Assembly: GCA_019429105.1 (NCBI GenBank)
Contig: JAHYJE010000031.1
Span: forward strand, 1-37,182
Source: Syntrophobacterales bacterium
Lineage (GTDB): Bacteria; Desulfobacterota; Syntrophia; Syntrophales; UBA5619
DNA: 37,182 nucleotides
Direction: 5' to 3'
The position numbers were made by a program, and so were the translations under genes. The number at the start of each line of letters is the position of its first letter. Position 1 is the stretch's first letter. This document shows, piece after piece, positions 1,689 to 16,530 of the stretch. A model generated the notes under the pieces. The model did not search any database. It was not told the DNA's origin and saw nothing but the letters and a program-made list of their open reading frames with translations.

Positions 1689-2186
1689 AAGACTTAATTC
1701 ATTTCTTTCCGAGCAGACAACGGTTTGGGAAATTTTCTTATTGAGGTTTTTTATCGACAGCTTCCTGTAAGGCTTAAAATTATTTCTTTCGCCGAAATCC
1801 AAGCCTTCAAATACAACTGTTCAGTTTTGCTGATCGATCCAGATCATTGAATCCGGTCTGAAATGTGGAGGGCTGAATTGCGATTTTTTCCACTGAAGAA
1901 ATAAGGTCTCCCTTCTTGATATTTATAAAACGTTACCCATCAAGAAAGCATGGATTTCCTTAATCATTGATTTTATTTCCCCGATAATTATGATATGCAT
2001 GAATGACTCTGTGGCATCCCGTAGCCAATGGATATAGATGATCCATTCTGTGAAGGCCGGTGTCAACGCATAATGGTTGAAAATTGCGGCATCGTCAGGA
2101 AAATATGCATCTGTTTGGAAATGACTCGTAATAAACCGAAGTAGGGCACATGCAGGTTTTTGAAAAAACGATCTCAGGAGAGACAA
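1689..2186. other. Long intergenic region before the defence operon
   Basis: About 500 nt of AT-rich DNA. The promoter of the downstream operon should lie here, but no convincing -35/-10 pair was found; TTGAAA at 2077 has no good partner. A minus-strand open frame (1923-2228) overlaps the start of the DUF499 gene, has no recognisable domain, and is not called. The region may hold remnants of older sequence. Confidence 0.4.
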
Positions 2187-5000
2187 ATGCTTGGATTGAA
2201 GCTTAGAGAAGAATTTCTCGGGGCGCACATGCCCGGAACTGCCATTTCACTGCGTACAAGCGACAACCAAGGCGCCGCACAGAAGTCGCCCGATTACATT
2301 CTGTCGATCACCTATCCAACGGCAGATGTCCAGACTGCCCTGATGGCAATCAGCAAGAAACGCAGTGGTTGCCCCATCGTTTTGATGGGAGATCGTGGAC
2401 GCGGCAAGTCGCACATCATGGCCGTCATGCACCATGCCATCCAGTCTCCTGATATAGTCGAGAATTGGCTCAAAGATTGGAGCGCAAGAAGTGGCAGTGA
2501 TGAGCTCAAGTCTTTTGAGATGGTCAAGGGATACGTCCCTATTTCCGAACCAGTCCATAATCACGAATATCCAATGCTTTGGGATCTGCTGTTCGACAGG
2601 CATCCGAAAGGCGAATACTATCGCGGCCAGTTTGAAAGCATGACTCAACCGTTTCCGCCTCGAACACTCCTGGAAAAGATGTTTGTTGATAATCCAACTT
2701 GTTTGATTCTGGATGAATTCCAAACCTGGTATACCGGCCTGCCCGACAAAGACCCCAAGACGGGCCTGCTTGTCAAGCAGTATGCCTGCAACTTTGTTCA
2801 AATTCTTTCAGAGATAGCAAAAGATCGCCCGGAAATTCTTATTTTCGTCATTTCGGTCTTCAATAACCAGAACGACGCATTTCAGCAAGTCCACCGGCAA
2901 GGACCGGTTGTCATTGATTTTCGGGGGCCTTCTGCCAAACAGGACCGCCAGAAGCTTCTCCTGCATCGCCTGTTTGAGAATCGTCGCAACATTCCTGCTG
3001 CCGATATCACCAATACGGCTGGAGCCTATGCGGGTGAAAGATTCCGGTTGCTACACACCAATGAATCTGATGCAGAAAAGGAACGTGTTCACCGTGAGGT
3101 TTTTTCCTGCTGGCCTTTTAGCCCTGAGCTGCTTGACCTTCTCGAAGATCACATCCTGCTTTCATCGGCAGCACAGGAAACGCGGGATCTTATACGCATA
3201 CTGGCACAGGTATTTCGTTCCCGTGGTGATTTGGTTCCTGTTATTACGCCGTCAGATTTCTTTGTTGATGGAGAATCCGACGAGGTTCAGACCCTTGTTG
3301 ACTCGATAGCTGTTCAGGCGGGGCAGGAAAAACTGCGGCAGATTGCCCAGCATAATCTTGAAGCCGTTCGTGACTCTGGGGCTCTCGTCCCAAATGCGCG
3401 TGAGATAGTGAGCGCCATCTGGATGCGCTCCATGTCTCCCGGGAAAAATGTCGGCGGCACTCCGGCGGCGCTGCACCTGGATATTACCAGAGAGATTGCT
3501 GTTGACGACAACGCATTTCAGGCGGAGTTGGCGTTGCTTATCGAAAACAGCGTCAACATCCATGGCGATGAGGTGCCAGGCGGCCCTCTATGGTTTGGGG
3601 TCAACGAAAATCCGCGGTCAAAGGTCCGTGCCTGCGCAAAGAATAATAAGCTCTGGCATATCGGCGCTGTCCCTACGGCGGGTCAGACGGTTTACCCCGG
3701 AAAGGATATCTCCCATATTCGCAAGACGCTGCGGCACATTTTTGTTTCTGAAACAACGCAACCTCCATCTCGCGTAATTATTCTCGGTCCTCACTGGAAG
3801 GATGATCCTTGGAATGACATGGATGATATTGACAAGCCTTCTAAATGGGATAGGCCGGTTCTTCTGGTGATCCCTGATCTGATTGACGGCGGTCAGGCTG
3901 GTCTCAATTCCTGCCTCGGCGTGTGGCTGGCCAAGCATGTCCAGAAGCGACGCAACACGATCCGCTTCCTGCTTTCAGCGAGCGATACGCCAGGTCTTTA
4001 TACTGACGACGAGCTCATCTATTCCTCTCGTTGCAGTTACCTCTGCTCACCCGAGGGATGGGGTTCCGACATGACCTATAAGGCATTGCACCAGGATTTT
4101 GACCGGCCTCTTCGTCAATCCCTGAAATCGCGCTTTAACCGGTTTGCGATCCTGCGCAAATGGAATTTCCAGCAACCACAAGACTGCGTGTTTGAGGTCG
4201 AGAAGATTTCTGAACAAGGCGGAGATATCCCAGCGGCTGTCGAAGCAAAAATCTTATCGGCTCTCTTTGACCAAACTGAATTCAAGAAATTCGTACTCAA
4301 GCGGGCCAAGGATTCTGATTTTGTAGGTTCCTTGATGGACGATCTGACCGAGCCCCCTCCTCCTAACACAGGCGAAGCGATCCCCTTCCTGGGGGAAATA
4401 AAGATCTATGAATTCATAATGGATATTGTGGCCAAGGGCGAGCTTGTCCTTAATGTGAGCGGTGCCTGGATCGGGCGGCGGGCAGAAGATGCAACCGACG
4501 AAGATGCCCTGCGCCATATCAAATCAAAAGCGTTTCGCACCGGTCAAGAGATGCGGCAGATACAGCTCGGGCTTCCCGGCGCCGTTGGCGGTGGAACTAT
4601 TACTGGCCCGAAAGACCCCGTAGGTGGTAATCGTCCAGGGGGGGTAAAAGAGGTTGGGCCAGGAATCACGTCGGGACCAGAGAAGACAGGGGGCGGAGAT
4701 CAAGGGGCCGACCCTACGGCAGGCGGGGAACCCATAAGTGGAAACGGTGAGACAGGAGGGATCACGCCACCCCTAGTGCCGCCGGTAATCAAGAGCAGAA
4801 AATCCGAGGAGTCCGCGACAGGCATAAACCTTTCGGGGTGTTTTGAAAAATGGGGCGTTTCTTCCAGCCAGCCTATTGAAAGCGCACGAATCGAGTTCTC
4901 CGGATTAACGGCTCAGCAGATAAAACAAATCCTGCTGCATATTCCATCCACCTTCAAGGCGACCCTGGAGATTGACTACCAGGATGGGGGTGAGGAATGA
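2187..5000 (+). CDS. DUF499 (COG1483)-type AAA+ ATPase, first gene of BREX/Pgl-like defence operon
   Basis: This 937-aa P-loop ATPase has a Walker A motif GDRGRGKSH at about residues 68-76 and a Walker B strand LILDEF at about 173-178, in the DUF499/COG1483 style. The family co-occurs with DNA methyltransferases in defence islands and is probably the functional counterpart of BREX BrxC/PglY. Residues about 798-865 form a Gly/Pro-rich low-complexity linker that separates the ATPase body from a small C-terminal domain (about 880-937). ATG 2187 is preceded by an ideal AGGAG at 2176-2180 (6-nt spacing); an in-frame TTG at 2160 lacks this. The stop overlaps the next start as ATGA. Domain assignment is from motif and gene context; the defence role is inferred. 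Confidence 0.85.
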   Translation: MLGLKLREEFLGAHMPGTAISLRTSDNQGAAQKSPDYILSITYPTADVQTALMAISKKRSGCPIVLMGDRGRGKSHIMAVMHHAIQSPDIVENWLKDWSARSGSDELKSFEMVKGYVPISEPVHNHEYPMLWDLLFDRHPKGEYYRGQFESMTQPFPPRTLLEKMFVDNPTCLILDEFQTWYTGLPDKDPKTGLLVKQYACNFVQILSEIAKDRPEILIFVISVFNNQNDAFQQVHRQGPVVIDFRGPSAKQDRQKLLLHRLFENRRNIPAADITNTAGAYAGERFRLLHTNESDAEKERVHREVFSCWPFSPELLDLLEDHILLSSAAQETRDLIRILAQVFRSRGDLVPVITPSDFFVDGESDEVQTLVDSIAVQAGQEKLRQIAQHNLEAVRDSGALVPNAREIVSAIWMRSMSPGKNVGGTPAALHLDITREIAVDDNAFQAELALLIENSVNIHGDEVPGGPLWFGVNENPRSKVRACAKNNKLWHIGAVPTAGQTVYPGKDISHIRKTLRHIFVSETTQPPSRVIILGPHWKDDPWNDMDDIDKPSKWDRPVLLVIPDLIDGGQAGLNSCLGVWLAKHVQKRRNTIRFLLSASDTPGLYTDDELIYSSRCSYLCSPEGWGSDMTYKALHQDFDRPLRQSLKSRFNRFAILRKWNFQQPQDCVFEVEKISEQGGDIPAAVEAKILSALFDQTEFKKFVLKRAKDSDFVGSLMDDLTEPPPPNTGEAIPFLGEIKIYEFIMDIVAKGELVLNVSGAWIGRRAEDATDEDALRHIKSKAFRTGQEMRQIQLGLPGAVGGGTITGPKDPVGGNRPGGVKEVGPGITSGPEKTGGGDQGADPTAGGEPISGNGETGGITPPLVPPVIKSRKSEESATGINLSGCFEKWGVSSSQPIESARIEFSGLTAQQIKQILLHIPSTFKATLEIDYQDGGEE

Positions 5001-5950
5001 GCACGGACTGGACCGGCATTATTCTAAACTCTAAGTCACCCGCCACCACCTGGGCGGAAATTTTTTCAGCTCTTCTGAGCATGGCCAGGGAGAGTTCATC
5101 GCCCGTTGCCCTTCATGATGCAACCGTCATGCCCGACCGATTGCTGACCGAGGCCGCCTGGGAGCTGTGGGAGGCTTTCCCGGAATCTGTGATCAAAACT
5201 TCCACCACCCTGAAAGATTGGACAAACCAGAGTTCAGGCAAGGCGGTTCTGATCCTTGACGCCCTTTCTCTCCGGGAACTGCCCCTCCTGCTGGGAGCGG
5301 CGGCAGCCAGAGACATTCAACCACTTCATGTCAAAATCACCGGGTCGGAATGCCCCTCAACCACCGATTACTTCGCCAAGGCGATCGGGTTGCCTTCGAG
5401 AAGCGCTTTGGCCAATGACGGAAAGCCGGGTACTTTTACTCTGTTTGGAGGCAATTGTTATACCGACGTTGTCAGCCTGCCGTTCGAGGATTGCGCGGTG
5501 CCACCGACACCCAACATCGTCATCTGGCATTCCTGGCTCGATGACCTGATTCACCTGCAACATAAACTTCCCGACCAGATCGCCGGCATTGCATCAAGTG
5601 TTCTGCAGGGGGATGGATTCTGGAACTTTCTCAATAAATTACGACAGGGCCGCAGTCTGGTCATTACCTCCGACCACGGCTATGCGGTGAGCAAGCGCTT
5701 CTCTTCCGAAGTGGAAGACCCGGAGGCTATTGAGATTTTGAGAAATACTTTCGGCGCGTCCCGCAACAAGGCCGTTTCAGAGCCGTGGCAGAAACGATTC
5801 ATGCCGCCCATCGTTATGTCCTACAACAATCAACACGTTGTCATGGGACAGCGGAAATGGAAAGTCCAGGGCGGCTTTCCGCACGTCTGTCATGGTGGAA
5901 TGAGCCTTCTGGAAGTCGCCGTGCCTTACCTGGAGTTGCCGGCGCTATGA
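4997..5950 (+). CDS. Compact PglZ-like protein (alkaline phosphatase fold)
   Basis: This 317-aa protein carries the PglZ/alkaline-phosphatase metal-binding pattern in order: LILDALS (D88, candidate nucleophile S91), VIWHSWLDD (D182/D183), LVITSDHGY (D226, H227) and HVCHGGMSLLEVAVP (H299). PglZ is the signature protein of BREX and Pgl phage-defence systems and is thought to act as a phosphohydrolase or structural core. Typical PglZ proteins are 600-900 aa, so this one is reduced to little more than the catalytic domain. It overlaps both neighbours by ATGA junctions (4997-5000 and 5947-5950), implying translational coupling in one operon. Catalytic residues are inferred by pattern, not by alignment. 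Confidence 0.85.
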   Translation: MSTDWTGIILNSKSPATTWAEIFSALLSMARESSSPVALHDATVMPDRLLTEAAWELWEAFPESVIKTSTTLKDWTNQSSGKAVLILDALSLRELPLLLGAAAARDIQPLHVKITGSECPSTTDYFAKAIGLPSRSALANDGKPGTFTLFGGNCYTDVVSLPFEDCAVPPTPNIVIWHSWLDDLIHLQHKLPDQIAGIASSVLQGDGFWNFLNKLRQGRSLVITSDHGYAVSKRFSSEVEDPEAIEILRNTFGASRNKAVSEPWQKRFMPPIVMSYNNQHVVMGQRKWKVQGGFPHVCHGGMSLLEVAVPYLELPAL

Positions 5951-8900
5951 GCGATCAGAATACAACGGAAGTCGATCTCTGGGGTGATGAGATAAAACAA
6001 GCTCCGGATGTGCCGAAAAAGAGTAGCGGTACATCGAAAGCAACCCTGCGGGAGGGCCTGCTCCCCGATAAGCTGGGCAAAGCCGTGCGGTTGCCCGTGC
6101 CGGATTTTTCCGATCCGAATCGCAAGCTGACCTGCCTGGAGGCGGATTTCCCCATCGCCCAGATCAACGCGCTGTCGAACCTTGAAGGCAACGCCGGCAA
6201 GCCTATTTATCAGATGTCAAAATGGTGGGCTCGCCGTCGCTCCAGTGTCTTCCGTGCGATGCTGATTGCCGCGGCTACTGAAGCACCCGATGATCCCACT
6301 GAAGCAGCAAAGAAGGTATGGGATCATTATTACTGCAACCATCAAAAAGCCGGATCTTTTAAAAAATTACGCGTGCTGGACTGCTTCATGGGTGGCGGTA
6401 CAACTCTGGTTGAGGGCTCACGATTGGGAATGCAGATGACGGGTGTTGATCTCAACCCAGTCGCCTGGTTTGTGGTGAAAAATGAATTGGCCTGCAGTGC
6501 CCCGGAACAGGTGAAGGCGCTTTTCGAGTCTATCGAAAAGCAGGTTAAACCGCAGATCCAACCGTTTTATACCACCACCTGCCCGAGAGGGCATAAGGGG
6601 CTATGGATTGATGTGCAGAGTGGCGAAACAGTCGAAATCGAGCCGATGGATTTACCGCCCGAACAACGCTCCCGTTACCGCTGGGAAGGGCCGGAGGTCA
6701 TCTACACCTTTTGGGCCAAACATGGGCCATGTCAGGCCAAGGGATGCGGTCATCGCACGCCGATTTTCAAGAATCCGGTCATCGCAGAGAAAAAACTGAC
6801 CGCATACTTTATTCCGATAACCTGTCCCTCCTGCGGCCATTTGTTCAATGCGGAACTTGGCGAAACTCGTATGGCGCCTGCTGCAGAAAGAGTTGTTCTT
6901 GAAAATGAACCCTCCTTTACGGAATTGTCTCAGAACTTTGCCAAAAGACTAAAGCAGTATTCTCAAGGGACTGGGCCTGAAAAAAGAGAGCGGGCGCTGG
7001 AGCTTCTTGATTTGATCGTGCGTGAAGATGGTTTTAAATGCCCCAACTGCGGAGCCTCTGCCGGCAGCAAGATAAAAAGCATCCTTGACCGACATGCTAA
7101 AAGCGGAAGGGCTTCAGACCTGAAGAAAAAGGATTTTGGTATCGAAAGCCGCCATGTCTACATGTATCTGCTGATAAATCCAAGATGGTTTACGGGCGCA
7201 CCCGGTGATGAGAATAGTATCGAACTTGGCGGTTATGCCGGAGCAGAAGCAAAGAGTACGATTCATTGGAATGAACTGCGAATTTCAAACCTGAATTTGA
7301 TTGAGGTGAGAGGAAGAATCCGTCTTGCGGACGAAGAAATCGACGAACCGGATGAAGATGAAACCACAGATGCAGATGAACCCAATGAGGGTGATGAAGA
7401 GGAAAAGGATAGAAAGAAATATGGTCTCCCTCGGGAAATTAAGCTGCGAGATGGAACGGTAATTGAAACAAGAAAGGGCACCGTGCCACGCAGAGCTCAC
7501 TTTACCTGCGCGTCCTGTGGACGCGAGGGCAATACACTTGAATCTGTTCGCCCTACTGGACACACCGCACCGGTAGCGGCCTATGCTTTACAATGCCATT
7601 GCCCGCAATGCGAGATAGAAAGCTACACTTATGGAGGACGCTACTTTAAATCTCCGGATTCTTACGATATTCACCGTTTCAAGGCGACCGAAACTGAATG
7701 GGACAACCGCTCGGAAGCGGATTTGACGGAATTCTGGCCCCGGCAGGAATGCTGGGATGCTTACATGATGCGGGCCAACGGCGGTGTCAACGACGGCTGG
7801 GGCTACACTCACTGGTGGAAAATGTACAATCCTCGCCAGCTTCTAGTCCATACCCAGCTTCTCAAGGCCATCACCGAAGCATCTGAAGATACCTGGCCAT
7901 TGGATGTCCGGGAACAGGCATTGGGGGCGTTTCAGCAGTATTTGCGAAACCAGAATATGTTCGTTTTCTGGAATCCTCAACGCGATACTCCGGAACCAAT
8001 GTTTTCTAACGCAAACTATCATCCAAAGATGCAAGTAATAGATAACTGTGTCTTTAATAATCTCGGGAGAGGTAATTGGCAATCCTCTTCTGCGAAATGT
8101 CTTGAGGGTATTGAATGGGCAAAAATACCTTGGGATTTAGTTGTGTCTGACAGTGGCAACGCAAAATCAGAGAAAGGTTTTCCCGAAGATCCCATCATCC
8201 CCGGCAACGAACCCTACTGCGGCTCATCCACCGATCTGTCGATGCTGAGCAACGAGCAGTTCGATCTGGTAATCACCGACCCTCCGTTCGGCAATAACTT
8301 GTTCTACGCCGACCTTGCCGATTTCTTTTATGTCTGGCTAAGGCTTCCCCTGCGCAAATGGTATGTGGGTTTACCCGAGGCGGTCTACTTCGAACCGGAA
8401 CGCACCCCCCACAGCATGGAGGCGGTGGATAACTCGGTGGAACACCCGGACGACCGGGAGGATTACGAAAAAGAGCCATTCATCGAAACCAAACATCTGG
8501 CCCGGATTCGGGAACTGACCGGTGATGCTACCCTTGCCGTGAATGATCAGAATCCACTCCACCGCCCTCAGCCGTCCAGTGACTTCTACAGCCAGACCCT
8601 GTCTGCCGTATGGGCCGAGGCGTGGCGCCGCCTCAAGGATGGCGGAATCATGGCCTTTACCTTTCACCACAGCGAAGGCAGCGCCTGGGTGGATGTCTTG
8701 ATGGCACTTTTTAACGCCGGTTACGTGCTGGTAGCGACCTATCCCATCCGTAGCGATGAGACCAAGGGTGATGCAGGGGCGTTCGGTAGTCGAAAAATCG
8801 AATACGATATTATCCATGTCTGCCGCAAGCGCATTGCAACTCCTGAACCAGTTAGCTGGTCTCGCATGCGGCGTTGGGTGAAAGACGAGGCCATGCGGCT

Positions 8901-9612
8901 GAAGGAACTTCTGGAACACACCCATGGCAAAACCCTTCCCGAATCTGACTTACGGGTGATCCTGTGCGGCAAGTCCCTGGAATTTTATTCTCGCCATTAC
9001 GGCCAGGTGTTCAGCGGTGACGGTCAACTGCTGGATGTACGCGACGCACTTCTGGGTATTAACCAGCTTCTGGACGACCTGCTCGAAGATACCGCCCAGA
9101 CCGGCGGATTACGCCCACCGGAGAGTGCCGAACCTAAAAGTCGGCTTTATCTGCGGTTGTTCAAAAATCATGTTGTCATGGAGCGTGATGATATGACCAA
9201 GACACTGCGCGGTACGGGTATCTCGCAGGGCGACCTGGAAGCCCGTGGTTGGATTCGGGCAGTCGGCAGAACCGTGCACGTTGTCCCAGTTCACGAGCGA
9301 TTCGCCTATTTTACCGAACGCGGGCGCAATCGCAAGGTGATCAAGACCGATCTGGACCAGGCCCATTTCCTCATCGGCGCAGCTTTCCCGAATTCGGGGC
9401 TGAAGATCGATGCGGAACTGAACAACCCGAATTTTCGCCTCAAGAAATCGGTGGATGAAATCCTTCAATGGTATGCAGAAGTGGATCAGAGCTCTGTCAA
9501 TCGCTTGGCGGCCAGGACAGCGGCTCAATTAGTCGAGTATTGGCGAACCCGGAGTAGCCGCCCGGAAGAACAGCGGCAACTTTCACTCTTTGAAATGCTG
9601 GATAGGGAATAA
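5947..9612 (+). CDS. DUF1156 / COG1743 DNA methyltransferase with Zn ribbons (PglX-I-like)
   Basis: This 1221-aa protein has the DUF1156 N-terminal signature KWWARRRSSVFRAML, then SAM-binding motif I VLDCFMGGGTT (V143-T153) and catalytic motif IV DPPF (D778-F781). Between them are several CxxC zinc-ribbon pairs (CPSCG, CPNCG, CASCG, CPQC) and an acidic insertion rich in Asp/Glu near residues 460-490. COG1743 proteins are predicted adenine-specific DNA methylases; BREX type 3 uses a relative as its self/non-self modification enzyme. An upstream ATG (5785) is open but lies inside the PglZ gene; ATG 5947 forms the ATGA overlap and matches the family start. It is long for the family. Target sequence cannot be read from the DNA. 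Confidence 0.9.
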   Translation: MSDQNTTEVDLWGDEIKQAPDVPKKSSGTSKATLREGLLPDKLGKAVRLPVPDFSDPNRKLTCLEADFPIAQINALSNLEGNAGKPIYQMSKWWARRRSSVFRAMLIAAATEAPDDPTEAAKKVWDHYYCNHQKAGSFKKLRVLDCFMGGGTTLVEGSRLGMQMTGVDLNPVAWFVVKNELACSAPEQVKALFESIEKQVKPQIQPFYTTTCPRGHKGLWIDVQSGETVEIEPMDLPPEQRSRYRWEGPEVIYTFWAKHGPCQAKGCGHRTPIFKNPVIAEKKLTAYFIPITCPSCGHLFNAELGETRMAPAAERVVLENEPSFTELSQNFAKRLKQYSQGTGPEKRERALELLDLIVREDGFKCPNCGASAGSKIKSILDRHAKSGRASDLKKKDFGIESRHVYMYLLINPRWFTGAPGDENSIELGGYAGAEAKSTIHWNELRISNLNLIEVRGRIRLADEEIDEPDEDETTDADEPNEGDEEEKDRKKYGLPREIKLRDGTVIETRKGTVPRRAHFTCASCGREGNTLESVRPTGHTAPVAAYALQCHCPQCEIESYTYGGRYFKSPDSYDIHRFKATETEWDNRSEADLTEFWPRQECWDAYMMRANGGVNDGWGYTHWWKMYNPRQLLVHTQLLKAITEASEDTWPLDVREQALGAFQQYLRNQNMFVFWNPQRDTPEPMFSNANYHPKMQVIDNCVFNNLGRGNWQSSSAKCLEGIEWAKIPWDLVVSDSGNAKSEKGFPEDPIIPGNEPYCGSSTDLSMLSNEQFDLVITDPPFGNNLFYADLADFFYVWLRLPLRKWYVGLPEAVYFEPERTPHSMEAVDNSVEHPDDREDYEKEPFIETKHLARIRELTGDATLAVNDQNPLHRPQPSSDFYSQTLSAVWAEAWRRLKDGGIMAFTFHHSEGSAWVDVLMALFNAGYVLVATYPIRSDETKGDAGAFGSRKIEYDIIHVCRKRIATPEPVSWSRMRRWVKDEAMRLKELLEHTHGKTLPESDLRVILCGKSLEFYSRHYGQVFSGDGQLLDVRDALLGINQLLDDLLEDTAQTGGLRPPESAEPKSRLYLRLFKNHVVMERDDMTKTLRGTGISQGDLEARGWIRAVGRTVHVVPVHERFAYFTERGRNRKVIKTDLDQAHFLIGAAFPNSGLKIDAELNNPNFRLKKSVDEILQWYAEVDQSSVNRLAARTAAQLVEYWRTRSSRPEEQRQLSLFEMLDRE

Positions 9613-9623
9613 CGAGGTGTATG

Positions 9624-10811
9624 ATGAAAATTGAATCGATCCGCTTGAAGAATTTCAAATCCTTTAAAGACGCGGAACTCTCGGCATTACCGGAGCTCTG
9701 CATCATTGTAGGGGCAAACGGCGCCGGCAAGAGCACTATTTTCAGTGTTTTCGGTTTCTTGCGCGATGCAATGAATAGCAATGTCAACGCGGCGCTGGCC
9801 AGATTAGGAGGGAGCCGTGGCTTCAAAGAAGTGCGCAGCAGAAATTCGCAGGGGCCGATCGAAATCGAATTAAAATTTCGCGTCAAACAAGATAGTCCGC
9901 TTACGACCTATTTCCTGCAGATAAACGAAAAACAGGGCAAAGCTCAAGTTGAACGGGAGATTCTGAAATACCGTCGTGGCAGCAGCGGTCAGCCTTGGCA
10001 TTTTCTGGATTTTTCCAAGGGAAAGGGAACTGCCGTCACCAATGAACTGGATTCCGTAACAGACGTCAAGGATTTAAACCGTGAGGAGCAGACCCTGAAA
10101 TCACCGGATATCCTCGCCATCAAGGGATTAGCTCAGTTTGAACGCTTTCCGGCCGTGATGGCGCTCGGCGATCTTATTGAAAACTGGCATATTTCGGGTT
10201 TTCATATCAGCAAGGCCCGGCCTGAGCAGGAGGCCGGATATGCAGAACATCTTTCCCGGGAAGGTGAAAATCTTTCGTTGGTGATCGAGTATCTGTACAA
10301 CCATGCCAGACCCACATTTGAAAAGATACTTTCGCTCTTAAAGATGCGCGTACCCGGAATCTCTCAGATCGAGTCCAAAACCACCGAAGAAGGGCGCGTT
10401 CTTTTGAAATTCCAGGACGGTTCGTTCGAAGACCCATTTCTCGCCCGCTATGTCTCAGACGGCACCATCAAGATGCTCGCCTACCTCACTCTGCTTTATG
10501 ATCCAACCCCCCATCCGCTGCTATGCGTTGAAGAACCCGAAAACCAGCTTTATCCGAAGCTCCTGTGGGAACTGGCCGAGGAATTCCGCGCCTATGCCAA
10601 CCGCGGCGGCCAGGTTTTTGTATCCACCCATTCACCAGATTTTCTGAATGCGGCGCGGCTTGACGAGGTGTTCTGGCTGGTGAAAAAGGACGGCTACACG
10701 CAGGTCTGCCGCGCAAAAGATGATGAACAGCTTGCCGCGTATATGGCGCAAGGCGACCAGATGGGTTATCTCTGGGAACAGGGTTTTTTTGAAGGAGCCG
10801 ACCCGCGATGA
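9624..10811 (+). CDS. RecF/OLD-type AAA ATPase (AAA_21/AAA_15)
   Basis: This 395-aa ABC-type ATPase has a full motif set: Walker A GANGAGKST (residues 30-38), a SDGT signature-like stretch in the C-terminal half, Walker B LLCVEEPEN (E303/E304) and the switch histidine in STHSPDF (H336). Proteins of this shape partner TOPRIM nucleases in OLD-like and other defence systems. The next gene overlaps by ATGA and encodes a TOPRIM-like DUF4276 protein, so the pair probably forms a split ATPase-nuclease effector. ATG 9624 sits 6 nt from GAGG at 9614-9617; ATG 9621 directly before it is an alternative start. The gene lies 11 nt after the methylase. Confidence 0.88.
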   Translation: MKIESIRLKNFKSFKDAELSALPELCIIVGANGAGKSTIFSVFGFLRDAMNSNVNAALARLGGSRGFKEVRSRNSQGPIEIELKFRVKQDSPLTTYFLQINEKQGKAQVEREILKYRRGSSGQPWHFLDFSKGKGTAVTNELDSVTDVKDLNREEQTLKSPDILAIKGLAQFERFPAVMALGDLIENWHISGFHISKARPEQEAGYAEHLSREGENLSLVIEYLYNHARPTFEKILSLLKMRVPGISQIESKTTEEGRVLLKFQDGSFEDPFLARYVSDGTIKMLAYLTLLYDPTPHPLLCVEEPENQLYPKLLWELAEEFRAYANRGGQVFVSTHSPDFLNAARLDEVFWLVKKDGYTQVCRAKDDEQLAAYMAQGDQMGYLWEQGFFEGADPR

Positions 10812-11365
10812 AGACCATTGTCTTTTTTCTCGAAGAACCGTCGGCGAAAGAGATGCTCGCAGGAGTTCTGCCACGCATTCTCCCCGAAAACTTTCAGATT
10901 CGGTACATTGTGTTTCGGGGGAAGCAGGATCTGGAAAAAAATCTTCAGAAGAAGCTGCGCGGATGGAGAATGCCGGAATCCGTTTTTGTGGTAATGCGCG
11001 ATCAGGATTCGGGGGATTGCAAAGCGGTTAAATCCAGGTTAGCTGATCTCTGCGGCGAGGCAGGTCGAGAAGATATATTGGTTCGTGTGGCCTGTCGGGA
11101 ATTGGAGAGCTTTTATCTGGGCGATCTGGCGGCAGTGGAGCAAGGGCTTGGTGTCAGAGGCATTAAGGCGCAGCAGCTCGGGAGGAAGTTCCGGAATCCG
11201 GATGCGCTGGGCAACCCGGCGGAGGAACTCCGTAATTTGACCAGCAGTGCGTATGATAAAGTTGCCGGCTCTCGCGCTATCGCACCTTACCTGACGTTAG
11301 AGGGCAACCTCTCCCGGAGTTTCAATGTGCTCCTCTCGGGAATTAGAAATCTTGTGGAGATATAA
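10808..11365 (+). CDS. DUF4276 / TOPRIM-like protein
   Basis: This 185-aa protein has a TOPRIM-like acidic pattern: FFLEEPSAKEML near the N-terminus (E9/E10), then VVMRDQDSGDC (D65, D67), then CRELESFYLGD (E98/E100). This matches DUF4276, a family commonly encoded directly after AAA_21-type ATPases. The TOPRIM core binds divalent metal and in OLD and related enzymes cleaves DNA. The ATGA overlap with the ATPase gene argues that the two products act as a complex. Nuclease activity is inferred from the fold pattern; DUF4276 has no well-established reaction. Confidence 0.82.
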   Translation: MKTIVFFLEEPSAKEMLAGVLPRILPENFQIRYIVFRGKQDLEKNLQKKLRGWRMPESVFVVMRDQDSGDCKAVKSRLADLCGEAGREDILVRVACRELESFYLGDLAAVEQGLGVRGIKAQQLGRKFRNPDALGNPAEELRNLTSSAYDKVAGSRAIAPYLTLEGNLSRSFNVLLSGIRNLVEI

Positions 11366-11367
11366 AA

Positions 11368-11868
11368 ATGGACACCCTATCGAACAACGTCTGGCAGCGT
11401 AGAGGGTCTTGCGTCGTCTTTGATAAGACGAGTCTGGGGCCGTTCATCTCCGCTGGCGCTGCCATTTCCTTGAGGCAGGCGCTATCCTGGTCACAGGGAC
11501 TACCGGCCAATCCTCCCGTGCCTGGACGCACAATCCTTGTATCGGGTTTGGAGACGATAATCGAGACATTGGAACCGCAGGAGGCTGAAGAGTTTCTTAG
11601 AGGTCGCATCCGACCGTTACTGAAAGCGATTCAGGAAAAATGGACTGAATGCGGATTAGTCTTCGGATTCGCTTCACACCCCAGGGCCTTCGAGGAAACC
11701 GCGCTGGAAGAGGAGGTCCTGTTTCGCCGCCGCGACCGCAAGACGGTGCGTCTGTCCGAGGGGCTCTGGGATGGAAGCGCCACAATGAACATGAAACGTC
11801 TAATCCGGGATGGATTGCAATCTAACGAAGGAACAGTAGTCGGCTATCATGTTATCCATATCTCCTGA
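11368..11868 (+). CDS. Hypothetical protein in defence operon
   Basis: This 166-aa protein was not recognised. It begins MDTLSNNVWQRRGSC, has a hydrophobic strand RTILVSGLETIIETL (about residues 55-69) followed by a charged helix, and a basic stretch RRRDRKTVRLSE near residue 120. The strand-helix pattern recalls a Walker-B-containing core, but no P-loop is visible, so any kinship to BREX BrxF (a small P-loop protein of type 3 systems) is only a guess. The gene starts 2 nt after DUF4276 and its 3' end overlaps the helicase gene by 20 nt. This tight embedding suggests a required subunit of the operon. Confidence 0.75.
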   Translation: MDTLSNNVWQRRGSCVVFDKTSLGPFISAGAAISLRQALSWSQGLPANPPVPGRTILVSGLETIIETLEPQEAEEFLRGRIRPLLKAIQEKWTECGLVFGFASHPRAFEETALEEEVLFRRRDRKTVRLSEGLWDGSATMNMKRLIRDGLQSNEGTVVGYHVIHIS

Positions 11869-14638
11869 GATTCAGCCCGGCCTTAAGGTCAGTCATGTCG
11901 AGCTGGGGGACGGCGTTGTCGTCGGCCGCGAGCCGACCGGCTATATCACGGTCTTTTTCCGCAGCTTTGGTGAACGGCAGGTTCCGGCTGATTCTCTCCG
12001 CCCGGCAGCAGATCGCTTTGACCAGATTGTGCAGAGCATGATTCCGGCCTCAGCAGACCGGCTGGAAAGGCTCTGGCTCGCTGTCGAAGCTGAAGAAATC
12101 CCCCTGATGGAAAGCGCGGCGACACTGACCTCCGCGAAGGTCGATCTTTTACCGCACCAGGTTGTTCTCGTACATCGGGTGGCCAACGCCCGGCCGAAAC
12201 GTTTTCTGATTGCCGATGAGGTAGGTCTCGGGAAAACCATTGAAGCCGCTCTCATCCTCCGGGAATTGGCATCCCGCGGTGAGCTGCAGCGGGCCATCAT
12301 GATTGTCCCCGCTGGTTTAGTAGAAAACTGGCGCAGGGAGCTGAATGATGTCTTCAACCTTGATTTTGAAGTGTTCGGCAGTGAAGGCGATGTAACAGAC
12401 CGTAAGTCAAACGCCTTTGCCAAGCACAACCGGTTAATTGCCTCTGTGGATACCCTCAAGCGCCCGACAAGGGTAAAAAAACTTCTCGCTGCGCCGCCTT
12501 GGGATCTGGTGGTCTTCGATGAAGCCCATCACCTCAGTGTCTATCGTAACGGCAACAAGGTGAAGAAGACGGAAAACTTCAAGCTTGTCGAGGCAATCCG
12601 CGACCATTGCCGAGATCTGCTTTTTCTGTCCGCCACGCCCCACCAGGGAGATCACTTTCGCTTTTGGATGTTAATAAATCTTCTTGATCCTACATTGTTT
12701 GAAGATAGCTCGGATATGCTCGATAATCGCCATCGCCTTAATGCGGTAGTAATCCGGCGCACCAAAGCCGACGCCTGCGCCCAAGACGGCAGCCCGTTGT
12801 TTCTCCGGCGCATGGTGCATACCGAAGGATTCAGCCTTTCGGATAAGGAGATGGATTTCTATAACGCGCTCCTTGACTATCTGCGGGATGGATACAACCT
12901 TGCTGCTCAGCAGGGGAACAAAGGGCGTGCCCTGGGATTTGTCATGAGCGTTTTCCAGAAGATCGCTGCCAGCAGCTTTGCCGCCATACGCTCTACCCTG
13001 CAACGCCGGTTGCTGATGCTGACTATTCAAGAGGGTACAGAGCTCGACGAACTTCTGGATGTCGATGGCCGGAACCGGGTCTTTGAGGAAGCAAGAAAGA
13101 TCATCCACGGTATCTATTCGCTTCCCTTTGACTCCGTAGGAAATGCTCAAACAGACCAGATTCTGGCTGATGCGAAATTCCAACTACTCAAGAAGCGAAA
13201 TGAAGCACGTACGTTCGTTACGACAGCCGAGAGCTTTTCGGATTCGGAATATGAAGCGGACGTCGGAGAAGATTCGGCAGCCCTGCTTGTCGCCATTGCG
13301 TTGCCGGAGGAACGGCAGCGGATTCTTGCGCTTCTGGCCCGGTTCCCCGAAGGAATAGAATCCAAGACAGCCATGCTTATCCATGCCTTACGACAGATAT
13401 GGCAGCAGAATCCCGATGAGAGGGTCGTTATCTTCGCCACCTACCTCGGCACGGTAGCGGCCATCAAGATGCAAGTAGCCGCGGCCTTCCCCGGCAAGGG
13501 CGTGGATGTTCTCAAGGGTGGCGATCATGGTGCCAAAACCGCCGTTCAAAAGCGATTCCGGCGCAAAGACGGACCAAAAGTTCTGGTCTGTACGGCAGCC
13601 GGGCGTGAGGGGATTAACCTTCAGTTTGCAAGAATCCTTTTCAATTATGACCTGCCTTGGAACCCGATGGATCTGGAGCAACGTATTGGCCGAATACATC
13701 GCTATGGGCAGGAATCCACAGCCCAGATATATAACCTCGTCGCAACCGACACGATTGAGGGGAAGATCTACCTGCTTCTTGAAGAAAAGCTGGGCGAGAT
13801 TGCGCATACGCTGGGCAAAGTAGATGAGCAGGGCCAGATTGCCGAGGACCTCAGAACGCAGGTTTTGGGTCAGCTAAGTAGCTGCCTCAGTTATGACCGG
13901 CTGTATCAGGATGCTCTGAGCGATCCCACATTAAGAAGAACTCGGCAGGAACTTGAGGTCGCCATGTCGAATGCCGACTTGGCTCGCCAGGTTGTCTTCG
14001 AGCTTTTCCAGGTTTTGGATCGCTTCAACCTCGGCGACTACGAAAAATACGATGATCAGGGACGTGGCATGCAGCGACTGGTTGGTTTTGTGTCCAGATC
14101 AGCCAGGCTCTCAGACTGGGTTTTCCACAAAGAAGACGAAACCAGTTGGAAATTGTCCCACAATGGTGAACCAGCAATCTTTTTTACAACAGACCGTGAC
14201 CGGGCCTTGCAAGATGAGAACCTCCAGCTTCTGGGCTTGGAGCATCCCATCGTCAGCAAGATGCTGCGCCGGCATACCACGTCTGATTCAGCTCCTCGTG
14301 CTCTTGCCGGGAAAGCAAGTGGGCTCGCCGGTGGTGGTTTGCTCACGATCTGGAAAATCAACACCCAAGGGAAGGATGGTCAGGCAAGCCATCACATCGT
14401 CAGAATCGGCATGACCGCAGCAGGCGACCGCGCCCCCTGGCTTGAACGCCTGGAATACGATCTCCTGGGAATGGATGCTCCGACATCAAAGATGCCTGAT
14501 GAATGGCAAAGGCTTGCCACGAACAGGAGGCAGCGGCTACAGGAGCTACTGCATAGAGAGCTAAGCTATTCAGGGATCATCAACGAAGAAATGTCCTACT
14601 CGGCCGTTCCGCTGGTAATACTGGGGATTGAAATGTAA
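11849..14638 (+). CDS. SNF2-family (COG0553) helicase/translocase
   Basis: This 929-aa superfamily 2 ATPase has motif I DEVGLGKT (residues 123-130), motif II DEAH (224-227), motif III FLSATPHQGD and motif VI QRIGRIHRYGQ (611-621). The first 50 residues, with SHVELGDGVVVGREPTGYITVFF, resemble a small SH3/CarD-like domain seen in related DrmD/BrxHII-type helicases. It probably translocates on duplex DNA as the motor of the defence complex. It is the last gene of the operon; the following 160 nt contain a separate promoter. Its start overlaps the preceding gene by 20 nt and has only a weak ribosome-binding site, so coupling is likely. ATPase assignment is firm; the partnership is inferred. Confidence 0.9.
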   Translation: MLSISPEIQPGLKVSHVELGDGVVVGREPTGYITVFFRSFGERQVPADSLRPAADRFDQIVQSMIPASADRLERLWLAVEAEEIPLMESAATLTSAKVDLLPHQVVLVHRVANARPKRFLIADEVGLGKTIEAALILRELASRGELQRAIMIVPAGLVENWRRELNDVFNLDFEVFGSEGDVTDRKSNAFAKHNRLIASVDTLKRPTRVKKLLAAPPWDLVVFDEAHHLSVYRNGNKVKKTENFKLVEAIRDHCRDLLFLSATPHQGDHFRFWMLINLLDPTLFEDSSDMLDNRHRLNAVVIRRTKADACAQDGSPLFLRRMVHTEGFSLSDKEMDFYNALLDYLRDGYNLAAQQGNKGRALGFVMSVFQKIAASSFAAIRSTLQRRLLMLTIQEGTELDELLDVDGRNRVFEEARKIIHGIYSLPFDSVGNAQTDQILADAKFQLLKKRNEARTFVTTAESFSDSEYEADVGEDSAALLVAIALPEERQRILALLARFPEGIESKTAMLIHALRQIWQQNPDERVVIFATYLGTVAAIKMQVAAAFPGKGVDVLKGGDHGAKTAVQKRFRRKDGPKVLVCTAAGREGINLQFARILFNYDLPWNPMDLEQRIGRIHRYGQESTAQIYNLVATDTIEGKIYLLLEEKLGEIAHTLGKVDEQGQIAEDLRTQVLGQLSSCLSYDRLYQDALSDPTLRRTRQELEVAMSNADLARQVVFELFQVLDRFNLGDYEKYDDQGRGMQRLVGFVSRSARLSDWVFHKEDETSWKLSHNGEPAIFFTTDRDRALQDENLQLLGLEHPIVSKMLRRHTTSDSAPRALAGKASGLAGGGLLTIWKINTQGKDGQASHHIVRIGMTAAGDRAPWLERLEYDLLGMDAPTSKMPDEWQRLATNRRQRLQELLHRELSYSGIINEEMSYSAVPLVILGIEM

Positions 14639-14801: not shown

Positions 14802-15347
14802 ATGGCAGACCCTAACTGGCAACTACAGAAGTTCATTATAGGCATAAGACACGAGAGGACTTTTCTTATTTCGGATATCCACGGGGGCATAATGGACGTG
14901 GTTTTGGGATTGCGTAAGAAAGTCCTGTTTCCCAAGGGCTGTTTTAGTCAGATGACTCGACCGGACGTTACCAAGATCATTTTGACGGATAAAGATGAGA
15001 ATTTATCCCTGACCTGCAGCATAGACGGGGTAGTAATCCAGGCAGAAATGTTCGAAGGCTCTTTAGTCGCCATAGAAAAAGTTGCCGAAATTTTTACACA
15101 CATTGTGCATGCTGTCTTACCACTAACCGAAGCAAAAGACAAAATTAACCGGCTGGGGGTTATCTATGAATTTCAGATCTCTAATTTTACAAATTCAGCA
15201 AAGACTATTTTCTCTCAGTTCATGAAGGTGAACCTGACCGGAATCCATGATAACATGCTCATGAGGATCTCACTTAAGAATCCTGTAACGGAATCAGTGA
15301 TGTCCTCAAAATCGCATCATTTTCAAACCGGCTTATTTGGTACATAA
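14802..15347 (+). CDS. Hypothetical protein, 181 aa
   Basis: Not recognised. The protein begins MADPNWQLQKFIIGIRHERT and appears soluble, with no signal peptide, membrane segment or obvious catalytic motif. ATG 14802 is chosen because GGAG at 14792-14795 is 6 nt upstream; a TTG at 14790 is also in frame but would overlap this site. The base composition is more AT-rich than the flanking core genes, fitting an acquired gene at the edge of the defence island. It might be cargo or an accessory of the defence system, but nothing in the sequence proves that. Confidence 0.6.
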   Translation: MADPNWQLQKFIIGIRHERTFLISDIHGGIMDVVLGLRKKVLFPKGCFSQMTRPDVTKIILTDKDENLSLTCSIDGVVIQAEMFEGSLVAIEKVAEIFTHIVHAVLPLTEAKDKINRLGVIYEFQISNFTNSAKTIFSQFMKVNLTGIHDNMLMRISLKNPVTESVMSSKSHHFQTGLFGT

Positions 15348-15654
15348 TCACGCAGCCGCTGACACCGTAACCGGATTCGCAGTCCCATCGGCGTTTAAAA
15401 TTGACCCCATTTTGCCATTCGTACTTCCCCGATGGCTGCAGTTATCAACATCCATCCTTCCGCCATGCTCGGGAAGGGCCGCTCCAGGATGGCTATTGAT
15501 AACTGCCTCCGGTGCCTGACCCTTTAGAAAATCTTTTTTAAAAACTTGACGCCATCGGGGAATATCGAATAACATTAAAACAGACGCGCCATGACGCCCG
15601 CGCTCATCATAACGCGTATCTTACATCAGGCTGCACTGCCGGAGAAAAGGAGCA
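15348..15654. other. Intergenic region with nested inverted repeats
   Basis: No convincing gene. A 75-aa minus-strand frame (15348-15575) lies across the inverted repeat and looks like a by-product of it. The region marks the boundary between the accessory island and core-like genes. Confidence 0.45.
15425..15562. repeat. Nested inverted repeat, MITE-like, about 138 bp
   Basis: The outer 12-bp arms, 15425-15436 and 15551-15562, are perfect reverse complements. Inside them, 20-nt arms at 15438-15457 and 15487-15506 pair at 18 of 20 positions, including 11 consecutive bases. A small TTCC/GGAA stem sits in the centre. The DNA could fold into a long branched hairpin. No transposase gene is nearby and target duplications were not evident. 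It may be a miniature transposable element or an RNA structure; copies elsewhere in the genome would distinguish these. Confidence 0.55.
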
Positions 15655-15657
15655 ATG

Positions 15658-15708
15658 ATGGGCACCATTCATAAAACAAGCTGCGTTCTCTGTTCGCAAA
15701 ACTGCTAA
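15658..15708 (+). pseudogene. 5' stub of a molybdopterin oxidoreductase gene
   Basis: A ribosome-binding site (AGGAG, 15648-15652) and tandem ATGs (15655, 15658) open a reading frame MGTIHKTSCVLCSQNC that ends in TAA (15706-15708). This is the characteristic N-terminus of molybdopterin-dependent oxidoreductases (formate dehydrogenase or thiosulfate-reductase-like), with the first three cysteines of the [4Fe-4S] site as CxxCxxxC. The remaining several hundred codons are absent: the ribosome-binding site of the next gene starts 8 nt later. It is most likely the remnant of a deletion that fused this 5' end to the crotonase gene. Being only 16 residues, the match is from memory of the motif and is not proven. 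Confidence 0.55.
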
Positions 15709-15726
15709 ATCGTGCAAGGAGGAACC

Positions 15727-16530
15727 ATGACCGAACTTGTGAACATTTCTATTGATAACCATATAGCAGATGTCCGTTTCAACCGTCCTGATAAATATAA
15801 TGCCTTAAACTTTGATATGATTGAGGCCATCGCCAACGCCCTCAAGAGACTGGAGGCGGAATCGGCGGTAAGGGCGGTTGTGGTGTCTGGCGAAGGCAAA
15901 GGCTTTTGCGCTGGTCTTGACCTGGAGAATTTCGCGGCGCTGCAGTCCCAGGCGGGAAATAAACTCCCTGGCCTCGTGGAGCGATACGAAGACAGGATCA
16001 CTAATATTTTTCAGTACATTGCCTATGGATGGAAACAGCTTCCCATGCCGGTAATCGCAGCCATTCACGGGGTGGCGCTGGGCGGCGGCTGCCAGATCGC
16101 GCTGGGGGCCGATATCCGTTTCTGCACACCCGACGCTAAATTTTCCATCATGGAAATGAAATGGGGGTTGATCCCGGACATGAGCGTTTCCCAGACCATC
16201 CGCGACCTGCTGCCTATTGATGTGGCCAAGGAATTGATCTTCACGGGAAAAATCATCAAGGGCGAAGAAGCAGCCCGCTTGCGACTGGTCACCCACGTAT
16301 GTGAAAAGCCATATGAAGAGGCCATGCTCCTGGCCAAAGAAATTGCCTCTAAAAGCCCGGATGCCATACGCTCCGCCAAAAAGCTGTTAAATGAGGTTTG
16401 GCATGGCAATTCAGCGCGGGGGCTGCTGATGGAGTCTGAACTTGAAAATAACCTGATTGGAACTGCCAACCAACTGGAGGCTGTTTCTGCAAACTTTGCG
16501 AAACGTACGCCAGAATTCAGGAATCGGTAG
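15727..16530 (+). CDS. Enoyl-CoA hydratase/isomerase (crotonase) family protein
   Basis: This 267-aa crotonase-fold protein carries GKGFCAGLDL (oxyanion hole) and IHGVALGGGCQIALGADIRF. At the usual first catalytic Glu (rat Glu144) it has Gln123, while the second (E143 in SIMEMKWG) is present and D151 follows in GLIPDMS. The pattern suggests an isomerase or other crotonase activity rather than a standard hydratase; substrate unknown. ATG 15727 is preceded by a strong AAGGAGG at 15716-15722; the GTG at 15712 would overlap this site. sbcD starts 8 nt downstream, so the three genes probably share a transcript. Confidence 0.88.
   Translation: MTELVNISIDNHIADVRFNRPDKYNALNFDMIEAIANALKRLEAESAVRAVVVSGEGKGFCAGLDLENFAALQSQAGNKLPGLVERYEDRITNIFQYIAYGWKQLPMPVIAAIHGVALGGGCQIALGADIRFCTPDAKFSIMEMKWGLIPDMSVSQTIRDLLPIDVAKELIFTGKIIKGEEAARLRLVTHVCEKPYEEAMLLAKEIASKSPDAIRSAKKLLNEVWHGNSARGLLMESELENNLIGTANQLEAVSANFAKRTPEFRNR

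Follow-up and report, generated by a model that had tools for sequence, protein, structure and literature searches.

Upstream of a crotonase gene lies an open reading frame of just sixteen codons with a ribosome-binding site of its own. Is this short frame a leader peptide that controls the enzyme gene, or what a deletion left of a longer gene? Attenuation leader peptides are short translated frames that precede an enzyme gene, and the locus resembles them in having a short frame with a start codon in that position. Its resemblance to deletion-reduced genes would lie in a once functional gene having been shortened; here, however, only 16 codons with a ribosome-binding site, a start and an immediate stop are present, which gives the frame a designed look. 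A literature search on gene remnants and leader peptides led to PMC2658671. We analyzed a window of 37,182 nucleotides, contig C31 of a 3.1 Mb draft genome in 95 contigs, in which the locus comprises the following features:

15417-15570, no strand: palindromic element of 154 bp with nested inverted repeats (repeat search)
15568-15612, plus strand: decayed 3' tail of a MarR-type regulator gene, roughly the last dozen codons, end approximate (local alignments)
15613-15657, plus strand: 5' untranslated region, inherited from an oxidoreductase gene (match to L158)
15645-15652, plus strand: ribosome-binding site of the short frame, AAAAGGAG, within this untranslated region
15658-15708, plus strand: the short frame or stub, very probably codons 1-16 of a molybdopterin oxidoreductase gene with TAA directly after (from sequence; unique among 155 genomes)
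15709-15726, plus strand: spacer of 18 nt with the crotonase ribosome-binding site AAGGAGG at 15716-15722
15727-16530, plus strand: intact crotonase gene of the PRK07509 family, 267 aa, probably the third gene of the ancestral operon

Two in-frame ATG codons are found at 15655 and 15658, of which the second is the start used by relatives. Translation from this position gives MGTIHKTSCVLCSQNC up to the TAA at 15706-15708. The good ribosome-binding site named in the original prediction is present before the stub, and the next one does follow closely behind the stop, although at a distance of 7 nt and not 8, ahead of the crotonase ATG at 15727. Stub and crotonase had also been described as fused; they share a reading frame, but a single TAA splits them into two frames. 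Inspection of the sequence and frames of the 18 nt between them revealed no remainder of an oxidoreductase.

To what extent does the stub resemble an oxidoreductase start? The comparison set consisted of 30 oxidoreductase loci from related genomes (L140-L169), in 29 of which the N-terminus is present and mostly similar to the consensus MGTIHKTGCVLCAQNC. Of the 16 residues of the stub, 14 agree with this consensus. The runner-up site in the window, searched in all six frames, reached 6 identities, and the best among 60 versions of the window generated from a second-order Markov model had 7. Among the best three sites of each of 184 other loci (1.62 million bases including overlaps, with the window copies L001 and L002 excluded), all matches of at least 9 residues were themselves oxidoreductase N-termini. 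Judged by these sequence comparisons, the likeness is far beyond chance, and the earlier reading of the stub as the beginning of an oxidoreductase gene is borne out. We take its three cysteines to be the first three of the oxidoreductase [4Fe-4S] site. A chance likeness, or a short frame that arose de novo and is not related to the oxidoreductase, might be invoked on the grounds that only 16 residues are compared and that CxxCxxxC is a short motif. The 14 identities, where the random windows gave at most 7, the non-coding similarity 5' of the stub and the oxidoreductase gene that relatives carry in this position leave this explanation a negligible probability.

At the nucleotide level, the first 48 nt of the stub are identical to L150 at 41 positions, to L146 and L149 at 39 each and to L156 at 38. 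The corresponding values for genome G115 are 41/48 nt and 23 of 30 bases upstream. A subfamily whose eighth residue is serine (G075, G089, G094, G134), with starts of the type MGEWKKTSC or MGERKKTSC, was considered as the source of the stub and rejected (31-36 of 48 nt; 4-7 of 30 bases upstream). The pattern AARACNVSNTGYGTNYTNTGYNCNCARAAYTGY followed by a TRR stop occurred in one of 155 genomes, the window's own, while the control pattern for a continuing gene, AARACNVSNTGYGTNYTNTGYNCNCARAAYTGY followed by GGN, occurred in 47. From sequence, the stub-stop pattern is a single truncation and no recurrent short frame.

The similarity extends into the non-coding DNA. In each of L150, L158 and L148, 23 of the 30 bases 5' of the stub start match, and L158 (G107) contains CCGGAGAAAAGGAGCAAT unchanged. 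Local alignments strictly upstream of the start, calculated for the five relatives with the best matches in a preceding local-alignment comparison, scored above all 200 shuffles in four cases (score against best shuffle: L148 56/26, L152 44/26, L158 36/27, L150 35/26); the alignment with L156 was not above its 200 shuffles (25 against 30). The similarity sets in at 15568 with L148 and at 15597 with L152, in both cases inside the MarR frame, at its 3' end, and the stretch aligned with L152 closes this frame (RLLTPRS, then stop). Since the upstream similarity extends this far, the regulator gene, too, has been cut to a decayed tail. The MarR gene before the oxidoreductase in L148 (G109:C86) looks degraded as well, which suggests repeated loss of this regulator.

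To the left, the operon homology ends at the right edge of the palindromic element. Its arms pair 15417-15436 with 15551-15570 and 15438-15458 with 15486-15506, and 63 nt of its core (15435-15497) are 84% identical to a site in a genome of the same family (G003:C164, L188). Possibly it represents a small mobile element or one of the REP type.

The crotonase itself is well defined. It matches Pfam ECH_1 with E = 6e-44 and scores 326.8 bits against NCBIfam PRK07509 (NF005699), above the family cut-off of 249; the nearest solved chain by sequence is 4og1. A plasmid collection searched with window positions 15600-16530 returned eight Rhodococcus records at 60-80% identity that cover part of the crotonase only. 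The crotonase stop is followed, 8 nt on, by the start of an sbcD gene. Farther away, positions 2160-14638 of the window hold a probable defence island with an ATPase and a partner protein (PADLOC HEC-01, E = 5e-207 and 3e-84), a weakly matching PglZ-like protein (E = 2e-4), a large methyltransferase (HmaB/MTase_II matches) and a SNF2 helicase (HmaA/BrxH/DrmD matches). Two short genes at 244-926 presumably resemble a HigB-HigA toxin-antitoxin pair.

What stands in front of this crotonase in other genomes? Orthologs (E ≤ 1e-75) were found in 20 of the 155 genomes of the order, the window's genome included. An oxidoreductase gene lies upstream in 11 of the 19 others, at 13-67 nt in ten of them and at 501 nt in one, and downstream in a further one. 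Near the remaining seven no oxidoreductase was found, within an upstream scope of 1,500 nt for five of them, 141 nt for L179 and none for L186. The most instructive locus is L053 from Syntrophaceae bacterium UBA2251. In it, three genes lie in a row: a MarR-type regulator (3701-4126), a full-length oxidoreductase gene of 744 codons (4163-6397), which starts with MGTIHRTGCVLCPQNCGLEV at 4163, and, 67 nt past it, the crotonase ortholog (6465-7271, 78% identity). The comparison of related genomes that had been proposed as a check therefore yielded genomes in which the start seen in the stub continues into a complete oxidoreductase and this crotonase follows. Homology, an intact syntenic counterpart and the lack of essential protein parts at the locus, which mark a deletion remnant, are all found.

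The oxidoreductase of L053 resembles the Mo/W-bisPGD oxidoreductases, such as formate dehydrogenase alpha, acetylene hydratase and PhsA, of which the stub would retain the first 16 residues only. It matches Fdh-alpha (TIGR01591) with E = 6.5e-73 and 245.9 bits, against a cut-off of 666.25, and stays below every NCBIfam cut-off among the matches listed. Among solved chains it matches the F420-dependent formate dehydrogenase 9t1s (1.4e-43) and acetylene hydratase 2e7z (9.9e-37). Among the papers searched, none combines a molybdopterin oxidoreductase, enoyl-CoA hydratase and Syntrophaceae; one, PMC12583861, mentions Smithella, molybdopterin and enoyl-CoA hydratase.

The linkage of the two genes is not uniform. 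Among the named loci L052-L071 (best 20 of 80), only L053 and L054 (the G027 and G022 loci) have the oxidoreductase. In L054/L050 (G022:C247) the crotonase comes first and a diverged oxidoreductase, about 54-57% identical to that of L053, follows 97 nt downstream, in surroundings that we take to include DUF169-like, nitronate monooxygenase-like and TetR-like genes. In a tree of 25 crotonase rows, the window adjoins the starred clade formed by the 16 rows of family f14, and L052 is placed just outside that clade (support 91/82 and 92/81, not starred). Mapping of the linked and unlinked states required five changes, with the window counted as linked, so that the linkage would have been gained or lost repeatedly. 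Besides this changing linkage and the L156 alignment, further observations count against a deletion: no oxidoreductase lies near L052, the crotonase most similar to that of the window (82%), and L150 and L148, two of the best DNA matches to the stub, belong to genomes in which oxidoreductase and crotonase genes are not adjacent.

Could the gap be an artefact of the assembly, with a complete oxidoreductase present in the real genome and skipped by the contig? The genome is split into 95 contigs, and a second oxidoreductase copy of the window's genome (L051, G000:C74, 2-1384, minus strand) runs off a contig end after 461 codons; a search of the rest of the assembly did not recover its C-terminal part. 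Over these 461 codons the copy is 85% identical to L053. It is, however, identical to the stub at only 32 of 48 nt and at 10 of 30 bases upstream, so there is no long repeat to explain a misjoin. The parent of the stub is absent from the assembly (no sequence of G000 fits the gene-continuing pattern), and the junction sequence contains no N. Hence we regard a skipped gene as very unlikely. We also considered the C74 copy as the relocated parent of the stub and rejected it, as its DNA match is below those of L150, L146, L149 and L156. By its sequence it appears to be a separate, distinct oxidoreductase gene, which may have made the loss of the other one tolerable.

The original prediction had left two options, a clean deletion or a short frame retained as a leader peptide. 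The first is supported by the complete gene in relatives; the second found no backing in the 155 genomes or in a fold or terminator. As a selected leader, the frame would either sense cysteine or iron-sulfur status or couple ribosomes into the crotonase 18 nt further on. The good ribosome-binding site and the short stop-to-start distance are in keeping with this. Between stub and L150 we counted 5 synonymous changes at 9.7 sites and 2 nonsynonymous changes at 38.3 sites, as would be expected under protein-level constraint (rounded Fisher p = 0.0025, a rough figure for 16 codons only). Constraint that acted before a recent deletion, however, would yield the same pattern. The stub with its stop is found in one genome of 155 and is not conserved as a short frame, the crotonase has a strong ribosome-binding site of its own, and gaps of 13-17 nt are seen in 5 of 11 relatives with the oxidoreductase in place. 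The RNA of positions 15580-15760 does not fold unusually well (z = 0.56; 136 of 200 shuffles were at least as stable). A scan of 15300-15800 gave no terminator-like site on the plus strand, all such sites being on the minus strand, and 2 promoter-like sites against 0.9 expected (s.d. 1.0), which is near chance. No switch between leader and gene, by terminator and antiterminator or otherwise, was seen in the 18 nt between the frames. Known attenuation leaders differ further in that the stub lacks a run of regulatory codons, having three spaced Cys codons only. We thus consider a selected leader very improbable. The same slim chance is given to a co-option after the deletion, by which the three-cysteine frame would have come to set crotonase expression as a coupling leader or one responsive to cysteine; if true, the first codons of a deleted enzyme gene would have given rise to a regulatory peptide.

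A deletion is, with high confidence, the origin of the stub: the sequence comparisons indicate that a MarR-oxidoreductase-crotonase operon once occupied the locus and that its crotonase alone is still intact. We propose the following course of events. The ancestor would have carried an operon of MarR regulator, molybdopterin (Mo or W) oxidoreductase and crotonase. A deletion of about 2.2 kb would then have begun at codon 17 of the oxidoreductase and taken out the gene up to its end or slightly past it; 728 of the 744 codons of the L053 gene are missing from the window locus. The 3' end of the deletion would lie within 15709-15726 or at the oxidoreductase's own stop codon. The untranslated region, the ribosome-binding site and 16 codons of the oxidoreductase would have been left before the crotonase, and the MarR gene would have been lost as well, except for the decayed 3' tail abutting the palindromic element. 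Transcription of the crotonase would still run through the old leader, and ribosomes may translate the stub without consequence. The loss of the oxidoreductase was presumably neutral, and the stub is most likely without function.

The timing of this deletion can be approached through the substitutions. The stub seems to have diverged mostly as protein-coding sequence, and the crotonase has a similar bias (against L052, dN 0.107 and dS 1.15; pN 0.10 and pS 0.59). Either the deletion is recent relative to the stub-L150 divergence or the peptide is still constrained; a recent deletion needs nothing extra. No close relative with an intact locus was found that would place the breakpoint or show any microhomology at the junction. 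For an empty-site comparison, sbcD matches (E ≤ 1e-60) were obtained in 7 of 20 other genomes of the family. These seven loci have no crotonase match within 1,500 nt upstream, their upstream open frames differ, and no common empty site could be defined.

An individual scar of this kind is of small general interest. It illustrates, however, that what looks like a leader peptide, a short frame behind a good ribosome-binding site and ahead of an enzyme gene, can instead be the scar of a deletion, and that comparison of one operon across related genomes settles which of the two is present. As the adjacency of oxidoreductase and crotonase would have been gained or lost several times, the scar in the window would be one among several breakups of this operon, which in several related genomes ties an uncharacterized Mo/W oxidoreductase to a crotonase.
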